From contig JAADHZ010000094.1 in assembly GCA_013151575.1 (NCBI GenBank), positions 1 to 33,050 of the forward strand: a stretch of 33,050 bases of DNA. Reading direction: 5' to 3'. A model generated the notes under the pieces. It saw nothing but the letters and a program-made list of their open reading frames with translations. It was not told the origin of the DNA and made no database searches. The stretch is from Gammaproteobacteria bacterium (GTDB taxonomy: Bacteria > Pseudomonadota > Gammaproteobacteria > SZUA-152). Each line of letters begins with the position of its first letter. Position 1 is the first letter of the stretch. A program made the translations under genes and the position numbers. Positions 19,981 to 29,574 of the stretch are shown piece after piece.

Positions 19981-20973
19981 GTGACCCAAGGTCTGAAAAT
20001 CCTATTTGCTGGAACCCCGGAATTCGCCGCTGATAGCTTGCGTGCCCTGTTGGGCAGCGAACACCAAGTGGTTGCTGTTTACACTCAGCCCGACCGGCCG
20101 GCTGGTCGGGGCCGCAAACTGACTGCCAGCGCCGTAAAACAACTGGCACTGGCTCATCACCTGCCCGTGATGCAGCCGGTGACCCTGCGAGACCCGCAGG
20201 CACAGCAGCAATTGTCCGACTTTCACGCCGACCTGATGGTCGTCGTGGCTTACGGCCTAATTTTGCCACAGGCCGTGCTGGATGCCCCGCGACTGGGCTG
20301 CGTGAACGTGCATGCTTCGCTGCTCCCACGCTGGCGTGGGGCGGCCCCTATCCAGCGCGCCATCCTCGCGGGTGATGCCGAAACCGGCGTCACCATTATG
20401 CAAATGGATGCGGGCCTGGACACCGGCGACATGCTGTACAAGACGCGCTGCCCTATTCAGCCCAATGAAACCGCCCAACAGCTGCATGACACACTTGCTC
20501 AATTGGGCGCGCAAGCCTTGGTGGACTGCCTTCCGGCCCTAACCGAAGGCACTGCGACACCGGAAAAGCAGAATGAGACCCTCGCCTGTTACGCGGACAA
20601 ACTGCAAAAAGCCACAGCGCAGATCCAGTGGCGACACCCCGCGCAGGCGATCGCCCGCCGGGTCTGCGCCTTCAATCCCTGGCCGGTGGCGTTCACCCCC
20701 CTGGCCGAGGGTATCTGCCCAGACAAACACAACCGCCGCAAAGATGGGAATGGTTCCACGCCGCGTAACCTGCGCATCTGGCAGGCCCAGGCCGTGGAGA
20801 TGACAGCACAGGGTGAGCCTGGCGAGGTGGTAGCGGAATCCGCCGAGGGCATCGACGTGGTCACCGGTGACGGCGTGCTGCGGCTGCAACAGTTGCAATT
20901 GCCGGGTGGTCGCGTCCTCAGTGCCGAGCAATTTCTCCATGCCCACAGCCTGTTGGGTATTCGTTTTGACTAG
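19981..20973 (+). CDS. fmt: Methionyl-tRNA formyltransferase
   Basis: The product is 330 aa. It formylates initiator Met-tRNA. The catalytic domain has LKILFAGTPEFAADSLRALL at the N-terminus, LPRWRGAAPIQRAILAGDAETGVTIMQMDAGLDTGDML (with the SLLPRWRGAAPIQ signature) and an OB-like C-terminal domain (AFNPWPVAFTPL). GTG 19981 is chosen because AAGGA lies 7 nt upstream; the in-frame TTG at 19975 is only 1 nt from that site. The stop overlaps the probable rsmB start. Confidence 0.97.
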   Translation: MTQGLKILFAGTPEFAADSLRALLGSEHQVVAVYTQPDRPAGRGRKLTASAVKQLALAHHLPVMQPVTLRDPQAQQQLSDFHADLMVVVAYGLILPQAVLDAPRLGCVNVHASLLPRWRGAAPIQRAILAGDAETGVTIMQMDAGLDTGDMLYKTRCPIQPNETAQQLHDTLAQLGAQALVDCLPALTEGTATPEKQNETLACYADKLQKATAQIQWRHPAQAIARRVCAFNPWPVAFTPLAEGICPDKHNRRKDGNGSTPRNLRIWQAQAVEMTAQGEPGEVVAESAEGIDVVTGDGVLRLQQLQLPGGRVLSAEQFLHAHSLLGIRFD

Positions 20974-22312
20974 CCCTGCCAAGCCCCTGAACGCCCGCGC
21001 CACCGCTGCCCACGTGCTCAATCAGGTGTGCGGACAGGGACGCTCCCTGTCTCAAACGCTGGCCTCGTTGCCCGCCGCCGCACAGGCGCAGCGCCCGCTG
21101 ATTGCCGAAATGTGCTACGGCACTCTGCGCGATTATCCGCGATTGTCACTGCTGCTCGGTGCCCTGCTCAAAAAACCGCTCAAACCCAAGGACGGTGACG
21201 TGCGCGCCCTGATGTTGCTGGGCCTGTATCAACTCACCGCCATGCGGGTGCCGGAACACGCTGCGGTGTCCGAAACCGTGGCGGCGGTGACCGGCCTGAA
21301 AAAAACGTGGGCCCGTGGGCTGGTGAATGCGGTGCTGCGCAATTTCCAGCGCCGTAGCGAGGCTCTGCTGGCGCAAGCGGCAGCTGATGAGCCGGCTCAT
21401 TGGGGGCATCCCCAGTGGCTGCTGGACAGCCTGCAAACGGCATGGCCGGATCACTGGCAAGCTATCGCCCACGCTAACAACCAGCGGCCTCCGATGACCT
21501 TGCGTGTTAATCGCAGCATGGTCGATACGCCCCAATACTTGCGCGAACTGGACGAAGCTGGCATCGCCGCCAATCCGGGGCAATGCGCCTCATCGGCCGT
21601 GTATTTGTCCGAACCGGTGGACGTGACAACCCTGCCGGGTTTTGAACAGGGCCGGGTCTCGGTGCAGGATGAAGCCCCGCAACTGGCCGCCGAGCTGCTG
21701 GACGTACACGACGGGCATCGCGTGCTCGACGTGTGCGCGGCCCCCGGTGGCAAAACCGGGCATCTGCTGGAGCTGGCAAAACTGGATTTGGTGGCAGTAG
21801 ATGTGGATGGTGAACGCCTCCAGCGGGTGCGAAAAAATCTCCAGCGGTTGCGGCAATCCGCGCAGTTGATGGTGGGCGATGCCAGCGACCCTACCGTCTG
21901 GTGGGACGGGCGACTATTTGACCGCATCCTGCTGGATGCTCCTTGCTCCGCCACTGGCGTGATTCGCCGTCATCCCGACATTAAACTGCTGCGTCGCGCC
22001 TCAGACATTCCCGTGCTGGTGGCCCTGCAGGCAGAGATTCTCGATGCCGTCTGGCCCTTGCTCAAGCCCGGCGGTATGCTGCTGTATGCCACTTGTTCGG
22101 TGCTGCCGCAGGAAAATGCACAACAGGTGGCGGCGTTTCTGACACGACAGCCTGACGCGGAGGACATTCCGCTGAAGGCGTCGGGCCAGGCGGCCCAGTG
22201 GGGGCGCGACGTGACGGTGGGGCGTCAGGTGTTTCCGGGCGACGGCGCTGACCAACATGACACTGGCGGCATGGACGGATTTTATTACGCATGCGTGGAG
22301 AAAAAACATTAG
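20966..22312 (+). CDS. rsmB: 16S rRNA m5C967 methyltransferase RsmB
   Basis: The product is about 448 aa. The N-terminal NusB-like domain is ARATAAHVLNQVCGQGRSLSQTL, LIAEMCYGTLRDYPRLSLLLGALL and VNAVLRNFQRR. The SAM domain has VLDVCAAPGGKTGHLLEL, DRILLDAPCSATGVIRRHPDIKLLRR (motif IV catalytic Cys region) and LLYATCSVLPQENAQQVAAF (second Cys). TTG 20966 overlaps the last codons of fmt and gives an N-terminus like known RsmB. ATG 20939 is an alternative deeper inside fmt. It overlaps the next gene by 22 bp. Confidence 0.95.
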   Translation: MTSPAKPLNARATAAHVLNQVCGQGRSLSQTLASLPAAAQAQRPLIAEMCYGTLRDYPRLSLLLGALLKKPLKPKDGDVRALMLLGLYQLTAMRVPEHAAVSETVAAVTGLKKTWARGLVNAVLRNFQRRSEALLAQAAADEPAHWGHPQWLLDSLQTAWPDHWQAIAHANNQRPPMTLRVNRSMVDTPQYLRELDEAGIAANPGQCASSAVYLSEPVDVTTLPGFEQGRVSVQDEAPQLAAELLDVHDGHRVLDVCAAPGGKTGHLLELAKLDLVAVDVDGERLQRVRKNLQRLRQSAQLMVGDASDPTVWWDGRLFDRILLDAPCSATGVIRRHPDIKLLRRASDIPVLVALQAEILDAVWPLLKPGGMLLYATCSVLPQENAQQVAAFLTRQPDAEDIPLKASGQAAQWGRDVTVGRQVFPGDGADQHDTGGMDGFYYACVEKKH

Positions 22313-22926
22313 CCTTGGGTGGCTGTTCCCTCCGTACTTATCTGCGGGGAAACAAAAACGACCAAAGCCCTCGCCGTTGGCGGCGCGGGATAAGTACGCT
22401 GGTCGGCTGCGTGTTAGGTGTTTTTGGCGGCCTGGCCCAGGCTGAGGATTTCACTGTGCGCAATGCCAGCACTTCGCTGGACCAGCAGATTTATCGCCTG
22501 AGCGCCGATCTCGGATACCATTTCAGCCCGGTGGCGCTGGACGCTCTGGGCAACGGGGTGGCGCTGACCTTAGTGCTGGATATCGAAGTCTTCGAGCCTC
22601 GGCGTTATCTGTGGGGCGATGTGGTTGCCGCCCTGGAACAACGCTACCAGATCCGCTACCACGCCCTCAGTGACCAGTACATCCTGCGCCGTTTGAACAG
22701 TGGCTCCCAGTCCGCTTACTCGTCGTTAGATCGGGCATTGGCGTCGCTGGGAAAAATATCAGACCTGCCCATTATTGACGCCCCCCTGCTGGCGGAGAGC
22801 TCACTGTACAAGGTACGCGTGCGCTCCCGGCTGGATATTGACAGTCTGCCGGTGCCTCTGCGCCTGAAGGCTTACATCTCCAGCGATTGGTGGATGGACA
22901 GCGGTTGGTACGCCTGGGATCTGTGA
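22291..22926 (+). CDS. DUF4390 protein upstream of ntrY
   Basis: The product is 211 aa. It has an Arg-rich N-terminus and a signal-like helix (ISTLVGCVLGVFGGLAQA), after which the mature part would start at about residue 52. The rest (YRLSADLGYHFSPVALDALGNGVALTLVLDIEVFEPRRYLWGDVVAALEQRYQIRYHALSDQYILRRLNSG... and a Trp-rich C-terminus WWMDSGWYAWDL) matches DUF4390, found between rsmB and ntrY. The function is unknown. It overlaps rsmB by 22 bp and ends 7 bp before ntrY, so it is likely coupled to both. Confidence 0.88.
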   Translation: MRGEKTLALGGCSLRTYLRGNKNDQSPRRWRRGISTLVGCVLGVFGGLAQAEDFTVRNASTSLDQQIYRLSADLGYHFSPVALDALGNGVALTLVLDIEVFEPRRYLWGDVVAALEQRYQIRYHALSDQYILRRLNSGSQSAYSSLDRALASLGKISDLPIIDAPLLAESSLYKVRVRSRLDIDSLPVPLRLKAYISSDWWMDSGWYAWDL

Positions 22927-22933
22927 GCATCCC

Positions 22934-25159
22934 ATGACCACGGTATTCGATACATTGCGACGTCTCCCTACCAGCGTAGTGCCGGTGGTGGTGATGGCCG
23001 GTTTCATGTTGGCCTCGTTGTGGCTGCTGAGCGCGGCTACGGAAAATTCTGCCCAGTTCGGTCGCATGCATGTGACGCTGGTGGTGGTCAACGTGCTAGG
23101 CCTGATTGTTTTGGCGGGCTTGATTGGCATGGATCTCGTGCGTCTGGTGCGACAGTATCGTCGCGCCGCCATCGGCTCCCGTTTTACCGCAAGGCTGGTG
23201 GGCATATTTGTGGTGATGTCCGTGGTGCCGGTGTTGATCGTATTCTATTTTTCGCAGGGCTTTATCCAGCGCGGCATCGATAGCTGGTTTGATGTCCGCA
23301 TTGAGCGGGCGATGGACAACGCGCTGCGGCTCAGCCAGTCATCCCTGGACGTGCGCATGCGCAATGATCTCAAACAGGTGCGCGAAATGGCCTCCTCGCT
23401 GGCGGGTTCCCCCGAGGGCATGTTGTTGTTTGATCTCAATAAATTGCGTGACCGCAGCGCCGCCAGCGAGTTGACGTTGATGTCGCAAAGTGGCCACATC
23501 ATCGCCTCGTCCAGCGCGGGTTCGACGGCGATCATCCCGCAACGCCCTGGCGATTTGGTGTTATCGCAAGTGCGGGAAAACGGTAATTACGTCGGCCTCA
23601 AACCCATTGACAACATGGGCCTGCATATTCGGGTGGCGGTGCAGGTGGGCTCTCCGCAATCTGCACCGGACCCGCGCGTACTGTTCGCCCTCTTTCCCAT
23701 GGATGAACGTGTTGCATTGCTGGCCGACGGGGTGCAGTCCTCTTACTCAAAATACAAGGAATTGGTGTACCTGCGCGGGCCGCTAAAACAAAGTTTCAGC
23801 TTTACCCTGTGGCTGGTGGTGCTGGTGACCCTGTTGTCAGCCGTGTGGGCGGCATTTTTTCTTGCCCAACGATTGGTGGCGCCATTGCGGATTTTAGCGA
23901 TTGGCACCCGCGCTGTCGCGGCGGGCAATTACCATAAAAAACTACCGGCCGTCGGTGACGACGAACTGGGCATGCTAGTGCAGTCGTTCGTGGACATGAC
24001 GGAAAAAATTTCCACCGCGCAGGAAGAGGTGAAGCGCAGTCAGCAACTGGCGGAGCGCGAACGCGCTTATCTGCGTACTGTGTTGGGGCGGCTTTCATCC
24101 GGGGTGATTACCTTCGACAAAAAATGTGTGCTGCGGGCTGCCAACACGGCCGCCAGTCATATTCTCGACGTGAATTTTGATGCCGCCATCGGTTGCGATC
24201 TGGCGCAATTGGAAAGTGACTACCCCGAGGCCAGTGCTTTTGTGCAGGCCTTGTATCGGTATTTCGAAGGGGATGGTGGCGACTGGCGGGAGGAAGTCTC
24301 AGTCGTCGGCATCACCGGCCACAAAACCATCAGCTGTCAGGGCGCGCAACTGCCTAGCATGAAAGGCATGACAGCGGGTTACGTGGTGGTATTTGACGAT
24401 GTTACCGCGCTGATTCAGGCGCAACGCAATGCTGCCTGGGGCGAGGTGGCCCGCCGTTTGGCCCATGAAATAAAAAACCCCCTCACCCCCATTCAATTGT
24501 CCGCCGAACGGCTACGCTACAAATATCTCGCGACGCTTTCTCCGCAGGATGCCGAGGTATTGGACCGCTCCACTCACACCATTATTCAGCAGGTCCAGTC
24601 GATGAAAGAAATGGTGCAAGCGTTTTCCGAATACGCACGCTCGCCGGAGTTGCATTTACAGTCGCTGTCACTGACCACCGTTATTGACGAAGTGCTGGAC
24701 CTGTATCGCGGTGAAAACCAGCGAGCCCGCATCGTGTTTGACCCAAAACAGCCGGTGCCGAATGTAGAGGCGGACCCGGGGCGCATCCGCCAGCTGGTGC
24801 ATAACTTGCTGCGAAATGCCATTGAATCCATTCCCGGACGTGGCGACGGGGAAATACATGTGGAGCTGAGGCGGGTGAATCACAATAATCACCAGTACGT
24901 TGAATTGTGTGTGCAGGATAATGGCCCTGGTATTCCCGATGACATGCTCGACAGGCTGTTCGAACCCTACGCCACCAGCAAACCCAAAGGCAGCGGTCTG
25001 GGGTTGGCGGTAGTGAAGCGTATAGTGGAAGAACATTCCGGCGTGCTGTACGCCGAAAACCGCCACGGGGGCGGCGCACGACTGGTGGTCAGGCTACCCG
25101 CGCTGGCTGTGCCGGAAAACACTGCCGAGGTGGTGAGACTGAATGTGGGAACCCCGTGA
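22934..25159 (+). CDS. ntrY: Sensor histidine kinase NtrY-like
   Basis: The product is 741 aa. N-terminal membrane helices lie at about 15-35, 48-70 and 85-107, followed by a large extracytoplasmic loop, another helix at about 290-310, HAMP (LVAPLRILAIGTRAVAAGNYHKKLPAVGDDELGMLVQSF), PAS (about 380-490) and the kinase core. The phosphoacceptor is His511 in AHEIKNPLTPIQLSAERLRYKY. The ATPase motifs are VHNLLRNAIESIPG, QDNGPGIPDDMLDRLFEPYATSKPKGSGLGLAVVKRIVEEHSG. Known NtrY proteins sense cell-envelope, redox or nitrogen cues. It is followed by its cognate ntrX after 28 bp. Confidence 0.94.
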   Translation: MTTVFDTLRRLPTSVVPVVVMAGFMLASLWLLSAATENSAQFGRMHVTLVVVNVLGLIVLAGLIGMDLVRLVRQYRRAAIGSRFTARLVGIFVVMSVVPVLIVFYFSQGFIQRGIDSWFDVRIERAMDNALRLSQSSLDVRMRNDLKQVREMASSLAGSPEGMLLFDLNKLRDRSAASELTLMSQSGHIIASSSAGSTAIIPQRPGDLVLSQVRENGNYVGLKPIDNMGLHIRVAVQVGSPQSAPDPRVLFALFPMDERVALLADGVQSSYSKYKELVYLRGPLKQSFSFTLWLVVLVTLLSAVWAAFFLAQRLVAPLRILAIGTRAVAAGNYHKKLPAVGDDELGMLVQSFVDMTEKISTAQEEVKRSQQLAERERAYLRTVLGRLSSGVITFDKKCVLRAANTAASHILDVNFDAAIGCDLAQLESDYPEASAFVQALYRYFEGDGGDWREEVSVVGITGHKTISCQGAQLPSMKGMTAGYVVVFDDVTALIQAQRNAAWGEVARRLAHEIKNPLTPIQLSAERLRYKYLATLSPQDAEVLDRSTHTIIQQVQSMKEMVQAFSEYARSPELHLQSLSLTTVIDEVLDLYRGENQRARIVFDPKQPVPNVEADPGRIRQLVHNLLRNAIESIPGRGDGEIHVELRRVNHNNHQYVELCVQDNGPGIPDDMLDRLFEPYATSKPKGSGLGLAVVKRIVEEHSGVLYAENRHGGGARLVVRLPALAVPENTAEVVRLNVGTP

Positions 25160-25187: not shown

Positions 25188-26585
25188 ATGAAGGCATCCA
25201 TTCTTGTCGTCGATGACGAACCGGATATTTGCTCCCTGGTTCGAGATATTCTTCAGGACGAAGGTTATGTCGTCAGCGTGGCGGAAAACGGCGAAACGGC
25301 GCGCCGCCTGGCGCGCCAGCAGGACCCAGACCTGGTGTTGCTCGACATCTGGATGCCGGACATCGACGGCATCACACTGCTCAAGGAGTTTTCCGGCGAG
25401 CGGGCATTGCGCGCGCCCATCATTATGATGTCGGGCCACGGCACCGTGGAAACTGCCGTGGAAGCCACCCGGTTGGGGGCGCGGGATTTCCTCGAAAAAC
25501 CTCTGTCCCTGGCCAAGTTACTGCACACGGTAGAGCATGCGTTGGCGGACGCTGCAGCGCCCCATCCGGCCAACGCCACCCATCTGCCCATCACCGCCGT
25601 GCCGCCGGTGGGCAAGAGCACCAGCATACAATTGTTGCGCGAACATCTGGAACGCCTGGCGCACGATGAAGGCACTGTGTTGATTGGCGGCGAGCCGGGG
25701 GTGGGAAAAACCTTTTGCGCGAAATTTATGCATGCGCGAAGTGAGCGCAGCCGTGGGCCTTTCATCGACGTTCACACCTGTCTGCTGCATGACGGTGATG
25801 CGCGGGTGCTGCTGTTCGGCAGAGAAGTGCAAAAAGACGATGGTTCGATCTCCGTGATACCGGGTTTTCTCGAACAGGCCCTGGGGGGCACGTTGTTTAT
25901 CGACGACGTGGCCGAGCTGGATGCGTTGGTGCAACGAAGTTTGTTCGCTGCATTGAGCACTGGACGATGGGTGAGAGTGGGCGGCATGACGGCGCTGAAT
26001 GCCGACGTTCGATTGGTCGTGGCATCACGCTATGACCTGCAACAGGAAATACGCAGCGGCCGCTTTCGGGAGGATCTTTACCACCTGCTAAAAGTGGTGC
26101 CGGTGCACATTCCGCCACTGCGGGAGCACCTCGAAGATATCGCGGAGCTATTACCCTACTATGTTAATCTGTTGGTGGATCGGGAGGGTCTGCCCTATCG
26201 CAATTTCACCGTGGCTGCGCAAAATCGCTTGCGCCATTATCAGTGGCCGGGCAATATCCGCGAGCTTGAGGGACTGGTGCGCCGATTGTTGGTGCTGGGG
26301 CTGGACAGCGACATAGAGCTGGACGAAATTGAAACGGTGCTCAGTGCATCACCCCTACCCAGCGGCGCCATGAAACCCGAGTTTGATCTACCCTTGAAGC
26401 AGGCGCGCGAGCAATTCGAAAAGGCCTACTTGGAATTTCACTTGCGGCAGGCCGATGGTAGTGTCGGCAAGGTAGCAAAAGCGGCGGGGGTGGAGCGCAC
26501 GCATCTTTATCGCAAGCTGCGAGCTTTGGGAATCGACGCGGGGCGCGCGGGCCTGGAAAAATTCAGGGAGTCTCACCGGCGTTGA
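25188..26585 (+). CDS. ntrX: NtrX-like response regulator lacking GAFTGA
   Basis: The product is 465 aa. The receiver (1-120) has the acid pair at 9-10, phosphoacceptor D53 (LLDIWMPDIDG) and K105. The AAA+ domain keeps Walker A at 167-175 (GGEPGVGKT), a Walker B variant LFIDD (238-240) and the arginine-finger region GRFREDLYHLL (291-301). The GAFTGA loop that contacts sigma-54, expected after LFGRE (209-213), is absent and replaced by VQKDDGSISVIPGF. The Fis-type helix-turn-helix is at about 424-448. The loss argues for regulation without sigma-54 remodelling, as reported for some NtrX/NtrC homologues. It is the last ntr gene before trkA, with AAAGGC upstream of its ATG. Confidence 0.93.
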   Translation: MKASILVVDDEPDICSLVRDILQDEGYVVSVAENGETARRLARQQDPDLVLLDIWMPDIDGITLLKEFSGERALRAPIIMMSGHGTVETAVEATRLGARDFLEKPLSLAKLLHTVEHALADAAAPHPANATHLPITAVPPVGKSTSIQLLREHLERLAHDEGTVLIGGEPGVGKTFCAKFMHARSERSRGPFIDVHTCLLHDGDARVLLFGREVQKDDGSISVIPGFLEQALGGTLFIDDVAELDALVQRSLFAALSTGRWVRVGGMTALNADVRLVVASRYDLQQEIRSGRFREDLYHLLKVVPVHIPPLREHLEDIAELLPYYVNLLVDREGLPYRNFTVAAQNRLRHYQWPGNIRELEGLVRRLLVLGLDSDIELDEIETVLSASPLPSGAMKPEFDLPLKQAREQFEKAYLEFHLRQADGSVGKVAKAAGVERTHLYRKLRALGIDAGRAGLEKFRESHRR

Positions 26586-26704
26586 ACAGGCATTTTTCCT
26601 GCCGTAAACGTATAAAAAATAATAATTGAGTAAACATACACAGTGAAAAACGACCGTAACAATGCCGCGCCGCTCATTGCGTGCCTGCTGGCGATGTTTC
26701 TGAC

Positions 26705-28078
26705 ATGAAGATCATTATTCTGGGTGCGGGGCAGGTGGGCACCTCGGTGGCCGAGGTGCTGGCCAGCGAGGCCAACGACATCACGGTGGTGGATCTCGAC
26801 GAGGCCAAGCTGGAGGATTTGCGCGACCGGCTGGATATCGGCACGGTGGTGGGCGAGGCGGCCCATCCTGAAGTACTGGCGCGCGCAGGTGCCAAGGACG
26901 CCGATATGATTCTCGCGGTCACCAATAGCGATGAAATCAACATGGTGGCCTGTCAAGTGGCCTACACCCTGTTCCACACGCCCACTAAAATCGCCCGCGT
27001 GCGCAGCGTGGGTTATCTCTCCCACCCCCAACTGTTCACCCAGGAATCCCTGCCGATAGATGTGCTCATCAGCCCTGAGCAGCTGGTGACCGATTACGTA
27101 CAGCGACTGATTGAACACCCCGGCGCCTTGCAAGTGCTGGATTTCGCTGGCGGTAAAGTGCAGCTGGTGGCGGTGCGTGCTTACTACGGCGGCCCGTTGG
27201 TGGGTCACGAGCTGCGCACCCTGCGCGAGCACATGCCCGGCATTGATACCCGCGTGGCCGCCATCTATCGCCGCAATCGGGCTATTTCACCGGAAGGGGA
27301 TACCATTATCGAGGCGGATGACGAGGTGTTTTTTATTGCCGCCAAACGTCACATCCGGGTGGTAATGAAGGAGCTGCGCCGCTTGGACCGGCCGGTGAAA
27401 CGCATTATCCTCGCGGGCGGCGGTAACATCGGCGTGCGACTGGCGAAGGCGCTGGAGACCCGATACCAGGTCAAACTCATTGACCACAATGCTGGGCGCT
27501 CGAAAAAAATCTCTGAAGAGCTGGAAAAAACCATCGTGCTGTACGGCGACGCCGCAGACGAAGAATTGCTGCTGGACGAAAACATCGAACATACCGACGT
27601 ATTCTGTTCGGTGACCAACGACGACGAGGCCAACATCCTCTCCGCGATGCTGGCCAAACGTCTCGGGGCGCAAAAAGTCATGGCGCTGATTAACCGTGCC
27701 GCATATGTGGACCTAGTGCAGAGCGGCATCATCGACATCGCCATTTCCCCGCAACAAGCCACCATTGGCAGCCTGCTGACTCATGTGCGTCGTGGCGATG
27801 TGACTGCGGTACACAGTCTGCGGCGCGGGGCCGCGGAGGCCATCGAGGCGGTGGCCCACGGCGATGTGCGGTCGTCCAAAGTGGTGGGGCGTGCTATCGA
27901 AGACATCAAGCTGCCGCCGGGCACCACCATTGGTGCGCTGGTGCGCAAAGACAAGGTTATCATCGCCCACCACGACACCATGATCGAGGCCGAGGACCAC
28001 GTGATTCTGTTCGTGGTGGACAAGGCGCGAATCCCCGATGTGGAACGTCTGTTTCAGGTGGGAATCACCTTCCTGTGA
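26705..28078 (+). CDS. trkA: Trk potassium uptake regulatory subunit TrkA
   Basis: The product is 457 aa, the E. coli length. It has two RCK/NAD-binding halves. The first starts [20 protein letters not shown], and the second has [19 protein letters not shown] at about residue 237; each half is followed by a TrkA-C domain. It is a peripheral cytoplasmic subunit that gates TrkH. The start is the ATG at 26705. The 119 bp after ntrX is AT-rich and could hold a separate promoter, though the block is commonly cotranscribed. Confidence 0.96.
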
Positions 28079-28122: not shown

Positions 28123-29574
28123 ATGCAACGCGCTGCCATCTTACGCATCGTCGGCCTGTTACTGATGGTGTTCAGTTTTTCCATGTTGCCGCCGGTGCTG
28201 GTGGGTGTGTGGTACGGCGATGGTGCGATTTATCCTTTTTTGGCGGCATTCGCCACCATTTTGACCCTGGGCGTGACGTGTTTTCTGCCGGTGCGCAAGG
28301 CCAATATGGACGTGCGCTTGCGCGATGGATTTATCATCGTCGCCGCGTTTTGGTTGGTGCTGACGTTGTCGGGCTCACTGCCGTTCATGTTGTCGGTCAA
28401 CCCGCACATGTCGTTTACGGATTCGGTGTTTGAAAGCGTCTCCGCACTGACCACCACGGGGGCCACCGTCATCACCGGCATTGATGACCTGCCGCATTCC
28501 ATCCTGTTTTACCGGCAGCAGTTACAGTGGATGGGTGGCATGGGTATCATCGTGCTGGCGGTGGCCGTGCTGCCCATGCTGGGCATCGGCGGTATGCAGT
28601 TGTACCGCGCGGAAACCCCGGGGCCGATGAAGGACAGCAAGCTGACCCCGCGTATCACCGAAACCGCGAAAGCCCTGTGGTACATCTACCTAGGGCTCAC
28701 TGTGGCCTGTGCGCTGGGTTACTGGCTGGCGGGCATGAGTGGTTTTGACGCCGTCAGCCATAGTTTTTCCACCATCGCCATTGGCGGTTTTTCCACCCAC
28801 GACGCCAGCATGGGCTATTTCAACAGCGCGGCGATCGAGGTGGTGGCGGTGGTGTTTATGTTGCTGGCCGGAGTCAACTTCGCGCTGCATTTCCTGGCCT
28901 GGCGCGGAGTGAGCCTCAAACCCTATTTTTATGACCCCGAGGTGCGGACCTATTTTTCCGTGATGGCGGTGAGCGCGTTGATCGCCAGCGTATACCTGTA
29001 CCAGACGCGGACCTTCGATACCGTACTCAGCGCGATGCATCACGGTATTTTTCAGGCCGTATCCATCGGCACCACCAGCGGCTTCACCACCACAGATTAT
29101 TACAACTGGCCGGGTTTTCTGCCGGTGTTGTTGCTGTTCACCAGCTTTATCGGGGGCTGTGCCGGTTCCACCGGCGGTGGTTTGAAAGTGATCCGCTTTT
29201 TGCTCCTGTTTAAACAGGGTATGCGGGAGATCTTCCGGCTTATTCACCCCAATGCTCAGATCCCCGTCAAGGTGGGTAACAAACCCCTGTCGGAGCGGGT
29301 GATTAACGCAGTGTGGGGGTTTTTCGCGCTGTACGTGGCGTCCTTTGCGGTGATTATGGTGCTGGTGATGATGACCGGCCTGGATCAGGTGACGGCGTTT
29401 TCAGCTGTGGCTGCCAGCATTAACAATCTGGGGCCGGGTTTGGGGGATGTGGGCGCTCACTACGGCGATATCAATTCCGCCGCCAAGTGGATTCTGTGTT
29501 TCGCCATGCTGTTGGGGCGCTTAGAAATTTTTACCGTGCTGGTGTTGCTGACCCCCGCTTTCTGGCGCAAGTGA
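28123..29574 (+). CDS. trkH: Trk potassium transporter TrkH
   Basis: The product is 483 aa, matching E. coli TrkH. It is the multi-pass pore subunit. The selectivity-loop segments SALTTTGATVITG, FSTIAIGGFSTHD, SIGTTSGFTTTDY and INNLGPGLGDVG are all present. GGCAGSTGGGLKVIRFLLLFK is the conserved helix-loop. It follows trkA by 44 bp, so the two probably form one unit for K+ uptake. Confidence 0.97.
   Translation: MQRAAILRIVGLLLMVFSFSMLPPVLVGVWYGDGAIYPFLAAFATILTLGVTCFLPVRKANMDVRLRDGFIIVAAFWLVLTLSGSLPFMLSVNPHMSFTDSVFESVSALTTTGATVITGIDDLPHSILFYRQQLQWMGGMGIIVLAVAVLPMLGIGGMQLYRAETPGPMKDSKLTPRITETAKALWYIYLGLTVACALGYWLAGMSGFDAVSHSFSTIAIGGFSTHDASMGYFNSAAIEVVAVVFMLLAGVNFALHFLAWRGVSLKPYFYDPEVRTYFSVMAVSALIASVYLYQTRTFDTVLSAMHHGIFQAVSIGTTSGFTTTDYYNWPGFLPVLLLFTSFIGGCAGSTGGGLKVIRFLLLFKQGMREIFRLIHPNAQIPVKVGNKPLSERVINAVWGFFALYVASFAVIMVLVMMTGLDQVTAFSAVAASINNLGPGLGDVGAHYGDINSAAKWILCFAMLLGRLEIFTVLVLLTPAFWRK

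Follow-up and report, generated by a model that had tools for sequence, protein, structure and literature searches.

The window analyzed here, a stretch of 33,050 nucleotides of gammaproteobacterial DNA, encodes an open and intact 465-residue response regulator of the NtrX/PlrR type (ntrX/plrR; 25188..26585, forward strand) that carries a Sigma54_activat domain in which no GAFTGA motif is found. The question raised by this locus is whether such a protein still acts as a sigma-54 activator and, if not, what its AAA+ domain would be for. A sequence-only reading of the gene had proposed that the product is not a classical enhancer-binding protein and probably serves instead as a DNA-binding factor acting with sigma-70 or as a repressor.

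The gene lies directly downstream of three genes on the same strand: the conserved upstream neighbor rsmB (20867..22312; NCBIfam NF008149), plrP, which encodes a DUF4390 protein (22291..22926; PF14334), and ntrY/plrS, which encodes a sensor kinase with an HEIKN motif (22934..25159; PF19312 NtrY_N, HAMP, HisKA, and HATPase domains). It is followed, again on the forward strand, by trkA (26681..28078; NCBIfam NF007032) and trkH (28123..29574; PF02386, TIGR00933). The order rsmB-DUF4390-ntrY-ntrX is that of the gamma/beta NtrX (PlrR) lineage, and since rsmB-plrP-plrS-plrR-trkA-trkH matches the order in Bordetella, the window protein belongs to this lineage. The name plrP comes from PMC13001219, where the product is given as a periplasmic accessory of PlrS in Bordetella. 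The top-ranked NCBIfam model for the protein was the NtrX equivalog NF051870, with 370.5 bits against a curated cutoff of 600; among the matches listed, all those above the cutoff belonged to genomes that are not of the window's class.

The three-domain architecture of the protein is complete. The receiver domain (residues 5 to 115; 25200..25532; PF00072) has all of its phosphorylation residues (D9, D10, S82, K104, and the phospho-acceptor D53 at 25344-25346), and the Fis-type helix-turn-helix (HTH) domain (residues 407 to 446; 26406..26525; PF02954) carries the NtrX signature ERTHLYRKL at residues 436 to 444, which as a whole motif is found in none of four paralogues in the same genome. Between them lie the AAA+ domain (Sigma54_activat, residues 141 to 306) and an AAA lid (312 to 388), with a match of 125 bits to PF00158 versus 82 bits to PF14532 (Sigma54_activ_2). 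The Walker A motif GEPGVGKT (G168 to K174 and T175; 25689..25712) follows the full consensus, T175 standing at the position where bEBPs have Glu. That the receiver, Walker A, and Fis HTH are kept was thus correctly read from the sequence.

The residues that would drive a sigma-54 motor are in a different state. PspF residue numbers and roles are taken here from the cited papers, and the mapping onto the window protein is from our alignments. After LFGRE (residues 209 to 213), the GAFTGA slot of loop L1 is occupied by QKDDGS (215 to 220; 25830..25847) when the protein is aligned with NtrC4 (3dzd) and the paralogues, and the absence of any recognizable variant, noted earlier, is confirmed. Walker B is indeed D-D in place of D-E as a matter of sequence (D239-D240; 25902..25907; PspF D107-E108), and the analysis brought out two stronger defects that had gone unremarked. 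The glutamate-switch asparagine (PspF N64) is replaced by H196 (25773..25775), and in the R-hand REDLYHL (residues 294 to 300; 26067..26087) the position of the second arginine (PspF R168) is L300; R294 (PspF R162) and D296 are retained, as is the sensor II arginine R358 (26259..26261). The arginine finger previously described as kept is therefore present as R294, but its R-hand partner is gone. Of the features by which bEBPs are recognized, the protein shows the Walker A motif and the AAA+ fold and has neither GAFTGA nor a complete RxDxxxR R-hand. The source that defines this motif and identifies R162 as the R-finger of PspF lists R168 substitutions with a kcat of ≤0.43, a KM of >3,000 µM, and loss of ATPase (PMC3419264). 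PspF E108D, by contrast, is described as having reduced ATPase activity and acting on duplex DNA similarly to the wild type (PMC4132715); because the substitution is tolerated there, the Walker B D-D is weak evidence, and we set it aside as a key argument. As judged from the alignments, the strong evidence against motor function is L300, H196, and the absent GAFTGA.

A damaged or misread gene was considered and rejected. The open reading frame is open, its relatives are full length, and dN/dS is low, which speaks against a frameshift or pseudogene; chance or sequencing error was rejected because GAFTGA is absent in 11 same-genus genomes, while NtrC of the same class is intact. In this control, GAFTGA and all ten positions were present in 30/30 NtrC proteins; a match was seen in 62 of 94 genomes, and the best 30 were used, with the open reading frame chosen within each locus by motif counts, a procedure that favors intact copies. 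In the four own-genome paralogues, too, the motif is present as GAFTGA or GSFTGA and no catalytic residue is lost, and together with the NtrC control this indicates that NtrX in particular has decayed. Because the genome has rpoN, loss of sigma-54 was rejected as a cause.

The alignment with NtrX homologues that had been suggested as a check of the earlier reading shows that the change is not confined to this gene. From 348 NtrX proteins, 321 remained after de-duplication at 98% identity; the counts of 189 gammaproteobacterial proteins and of 22 rows from the window's order given below were made before this step, and those with denominators of 193, 195, 79, 59, and 27 after it. The gamma group comprises gammaproteobacterial NtrX without those of the order of genome G101 (193 distinct full-length proteins, 195 distinct rows), an order we call Burkholderiales from its AAA-less NtrX and its group size. 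GAFTGA was found in 0/193 gamma NtrX, 0/59 Burkholderiales-order proteins that retain an AAA+ remnant, and 0/27 NtrX from a set of top-scoring NF051870 matches outside the class (30 loci, 27 entering the counts; probably alphaproteobacterial). Judging by these alignments, gamma and beta NtrX as a rule lack GAFTGA, and the loss is not peculiar to the window gene. Catalytic residues are eroded as well: among the 193 gamma proteins, the Walker A lysine is kept in 141, N64 in 19, the Walker B Asp in 83 and Glu in 82, R162 in 168, R168 in 29, and the sensor II arginine in 156, and all six catalytic residues (K, N, D, E, R, and R) coincide in only 3/193 gamma and 0/59 Burkholderiales-order proteins. 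Asp at the Walker B Glu position occurs in 88/189 gamma NtrX, so that D-D is common in the family. The receiver and HTH domains have not followed this course in any of the groups, D53 being present in 194/195 gamma rows (the lone exception, L350, is a contig-end row with gaps at D9 and D53) and R437 in 195/195 gamma and 79/79 Burkholderiales rows, with R437/R442 effectively invariant. The claim that the protein is no classical enhancer-binding protein is well supported by the missing GAFTGA, by H196 and L300, and by their conservation throughout the lineage; what does not carry it is the Walker B argument on which it had partly relied.

Decay goes furthest in the Burkholderiales order, where the AAA+ region is absent from 20/79 NtrX and the other 59 hold a decayed remnant, in which the Walker A lysine is kept once, the Walker B Asp twice, R162 twice, and R168 seven times; the L1 segment is cut to 13 residues in 55/59, and for two remnants the best match was PF14532 (124 and 141 bits). 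Excision was also seen in two gamma rows, one of them (L355, gap 107) a partial deletion counted as excised. On a receiver-plus-HTH tree (FastTree, 181 columns), excision corresponds to seven label changes, a rough count because the tree is weakly supported (72/324 inner branches starred). At the other end, the top-scoring outside-class NtrX, probably alphaproteobacterial, have the Walker A lysine, Walker B Asp, R162, and R168 in 27/27 each, and among 20 further loci, hand-picked for spread, GAFTGA or GAFPGA occurs in 6 and all six catalytic residues in 10. Outside-class NtrX with GAFTGA or GAFPGA (L265-L268, L270, and L254) are possible survivors of an ancestral sigma-54-contacting form. Two observations concern individual genomes. 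Two Burkholderiales-order proteins (L377 in G488 and L387 in G525; frames of 571 and 613 residues) have two adjacent HTH matches in one frame and possibly duplicated DNA-binding domains, receiver-HTH gaps of 323 to 328 being seen in this draw; and two NtrX genes (L344 and L351) occur together in G540, a genome of the window's family, one of them of a more ordinary gamma type, with contamination being possible.

Within the window's own genus, the domain is far from discarded. The AAA+ and receiver domains are under equal purifying selection (dN over whole-gene dS of 0.041 for each, from 51 pairs), and an AlphaFold model of the window protein folds the AAA+ domain with a pLDDT of ~90 (mean of 82.8 overall; pTM of 0.55) and superposes it on the AAA+ domain of FleQ (5exs) with a Z score of 29.5 and an rmsd of 2.2 over 248 residues. 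Against Brucella NtrX the model aligns over 421 residues with a full-length rmsd of 18, which probably reflects domain placement. Alignment and model fit an AAA+ domain that is not dead in the window's clade, having retained its fold and perhaps nucleotide binding and lost catalysis and sigma-54 contact. We consider it likely that the protein is a phosphorylation-controlled, sigma-54-independent DNA-binding NtrX/PlrR partner of NtrY whose AAA+ domain acts as a nonremodeling scaffold or nucleotide sensor. Given the intact motifs on both proteins, NtrY would phosphorylate D53, and the phosphorylated NtrX dimer would bind DNA through its Fis-type HTH and control sigma-70-type promoters as an activator or a repressor. 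The AAA+ domain would fold normally and be unable to remodel sigma-54 RNA polymerase, GAFTGA being absent and the glutamate switch (H196 and D240) and the R-hand (L300) apparently broken; it may stay as a dimerization or regulatory scaffold, with nucleotide probably still bound.

What such a domain does without its motor can be read in other ways. One reading, a subversion of this explanation that seems to us rather unlikely, makes it a static nucleotide sensor: ATP or ADP would be bound and not hydrolyzed, dimer geometry or DNA affinity would depend on which state is bound, and NtrX would in this way integrate phosphorylation with adenylate state. The pattern in the window's order favors it: all 22 rows have the Walker A lysine, R162, and D164, and none has R168, N64, or the Walker B Glu. 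It is also favored by the equal constraint on AAA+ and receiver in the genus and by the titles of 5m7n and 5m7p, according to which Brucella NtrX, another GAFTGA-less protein, was crystallized both with ATP and with ADP. Free loss of the Walker A lysine in relatives (the 141/193 and 1/59 given above) argues that nucleotide binding is not general. That same equality of constraint, together with the kept P-loop, weighs against an inert spacer heading for deletion, with no role beyond holding the receiver and HTH together, a reading that we judge distinctly unlikely for the window protein. It draws on the excisions in 20/79 Burkholderiales-order and two gamma rows, on the seven label changes of the weakly supported tree, on the variable length of L1 inside the window's genus, and on an AAA+ dN ~3.5 times that of the receiver in the Burkholderiales remnants, where, as in the top-scoring outside-class set, dS has probably come close to saturation and values were therefore compared only as ratios between domains.

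A retained sigma-54 activator making contact through a noncanonical L1 loop is, in our view, highly improbable. The window's loop is about as long as a normal L1 segment in the alignment; on the other hand, its tip QKDDGS is not conserved even within the genus, where both the length and the sequence of L1 vary: the window loop is 5 residues longer than in most same-genus sisters, and in L341 ~20 extra residues relative to sisters stand in place of GAFTGA. N64 and R168 are also lost. The presence of rpoN in the genome and its co-occurrence with NtrX favor this reading. In a class draw of 185 genomes, 112 had both NtrX and rpoN, 6 NtrX only, 29 rpoN only, and 38 neither (Fisher p of 3e-15), an association that may be explained by shared loss in small genomes and that still counts against sigma-54 independence. 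Against a retained sigma-54 activator stand four single-contig genomes, at least 98% complete, with NtrX and no rpoN match (G103, G317, G350, and G504). Two of the six NtrX-only genomes (G038 and G084) also carry NtrC, and because of this their rpoN may be missing merely from the assembly.

The sigma-54-independent regulator that we prefer would need target promoters, and the window was scanned for these. Sigma-54 promoter-like sites with up to 2 mismatches numbered 21 in the window versus 24.1 expected, giving no signal, and several of them lay inside the tandem repeat with which the window begins. GCAN9TGC, the published pattern for NtrX sites, occurred 15 times versus 18.7 expected and was not enriched. 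Between positions 22200 and 26700, sigma-70 promoter-like sites (2 versus 2.4 expected) and terminator-like sites (6 versus 5.5 expected) were likewise not above chance. Since these scans were no better than chance, they point to no target promoter and no autoregulation site in the window. The repeats at the contig start (positions 1-190) are tandem arrays with periods of 11, 16, 13, and 26 bases built around CCATTGATC or CCATTG, including 8.1 exact copies of the 11-base unit at 1-89, and an IS200-like Y1 transposase (PF01797) is encoded near them at 2056-2892 on the forward strand.

Known systems bracket the window protein. The best solved relative and best full-length structural match is Brucella abortus NtrX (5m7n, 5m7o, and 5m7p), which shares the receiver-AAA+-Fis architecture without GAFTGA but keeps Walker B D-E, the glutamate-switch asparagine, and both R-hand arginines (FREDLFHRL); three of these residues are changed in the window protein. 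PlrR of Bordetella, a beta NtrX, shares the gene order and the HEIKN kinase motif (PMC13001219); beta NtrX are said in the same source to lack the AAA+ domain, which the window protein has. The NtrC proteins of Caulobacter and Rhodobacter capsulatus are NtrC-family members without GAFTGA that are linked to sigma-70 promoters (PMC10274813), but theirs is a lineage-specific L1 deletion in NtrC, whereas the loss in NtrX is family-wide and reaches catalytic residues. Vibrio cholerae VpsR (spelled VspR in the source) is given there as a GAFTGA-less regulator acting with sigma-70. VpsR and FleQ are atypical NtrC-family regulators and strong structural matches to the window protein; unlike it, they are not partners of NtrY and, according to the titles of their PDB entries, bind c-di-GMP.

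That NtrX can be without GAFTGA is not new: the motif is described as absent from Caulobacter NtrX (PMC10274813). In the literature searched, which mostly excluded subscription journals, we found no description of a graded pseudo-ATPase series in NtrX; neither the catalytic erosion seen across gamma NtrX nor the decayed AAA+ remnant of 59/79 Burkholderiales-order NtrX appears to have been described, the window protein being one intermediate. The remnants also qualify the statement that beta NtrX are without an AAA+ domain (PMC13001219). We tentatively propose, as a possibility that falls short of probable, that gamma/beta NtrX is a pseudo-AAA+ regulator that has repeatedly lost sigma-54 contact, hydrolysis, nucleotide binding, and the whole domain, in that order, and that the window's clade is frozen with ATP or ADP bound and unhydrolyzed, its AAA+ domain sensing adenylates allosterically and so tuning a regulator that acts with sigma-70. 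In annotation pipelines and papers, a Sigma54_activat domain is enough for a protein to be counted as a sigma-54 activator; domain content has, for example, placed NtrX on the list of bEBPs in Acidithiobacillia (PMC12194929). Since nearly all the gamma/beta NtrX sampled here have the domain in a catalytically eroded form, sigma-54 promoters are the wrong place to look for their regulons. Within the NtrX family, stages between an AAA+ motor regulator and a simple two-domain response regulator still exist in living bacteria, and through them the role of a motor domain after the loss of its motor becomes testable.
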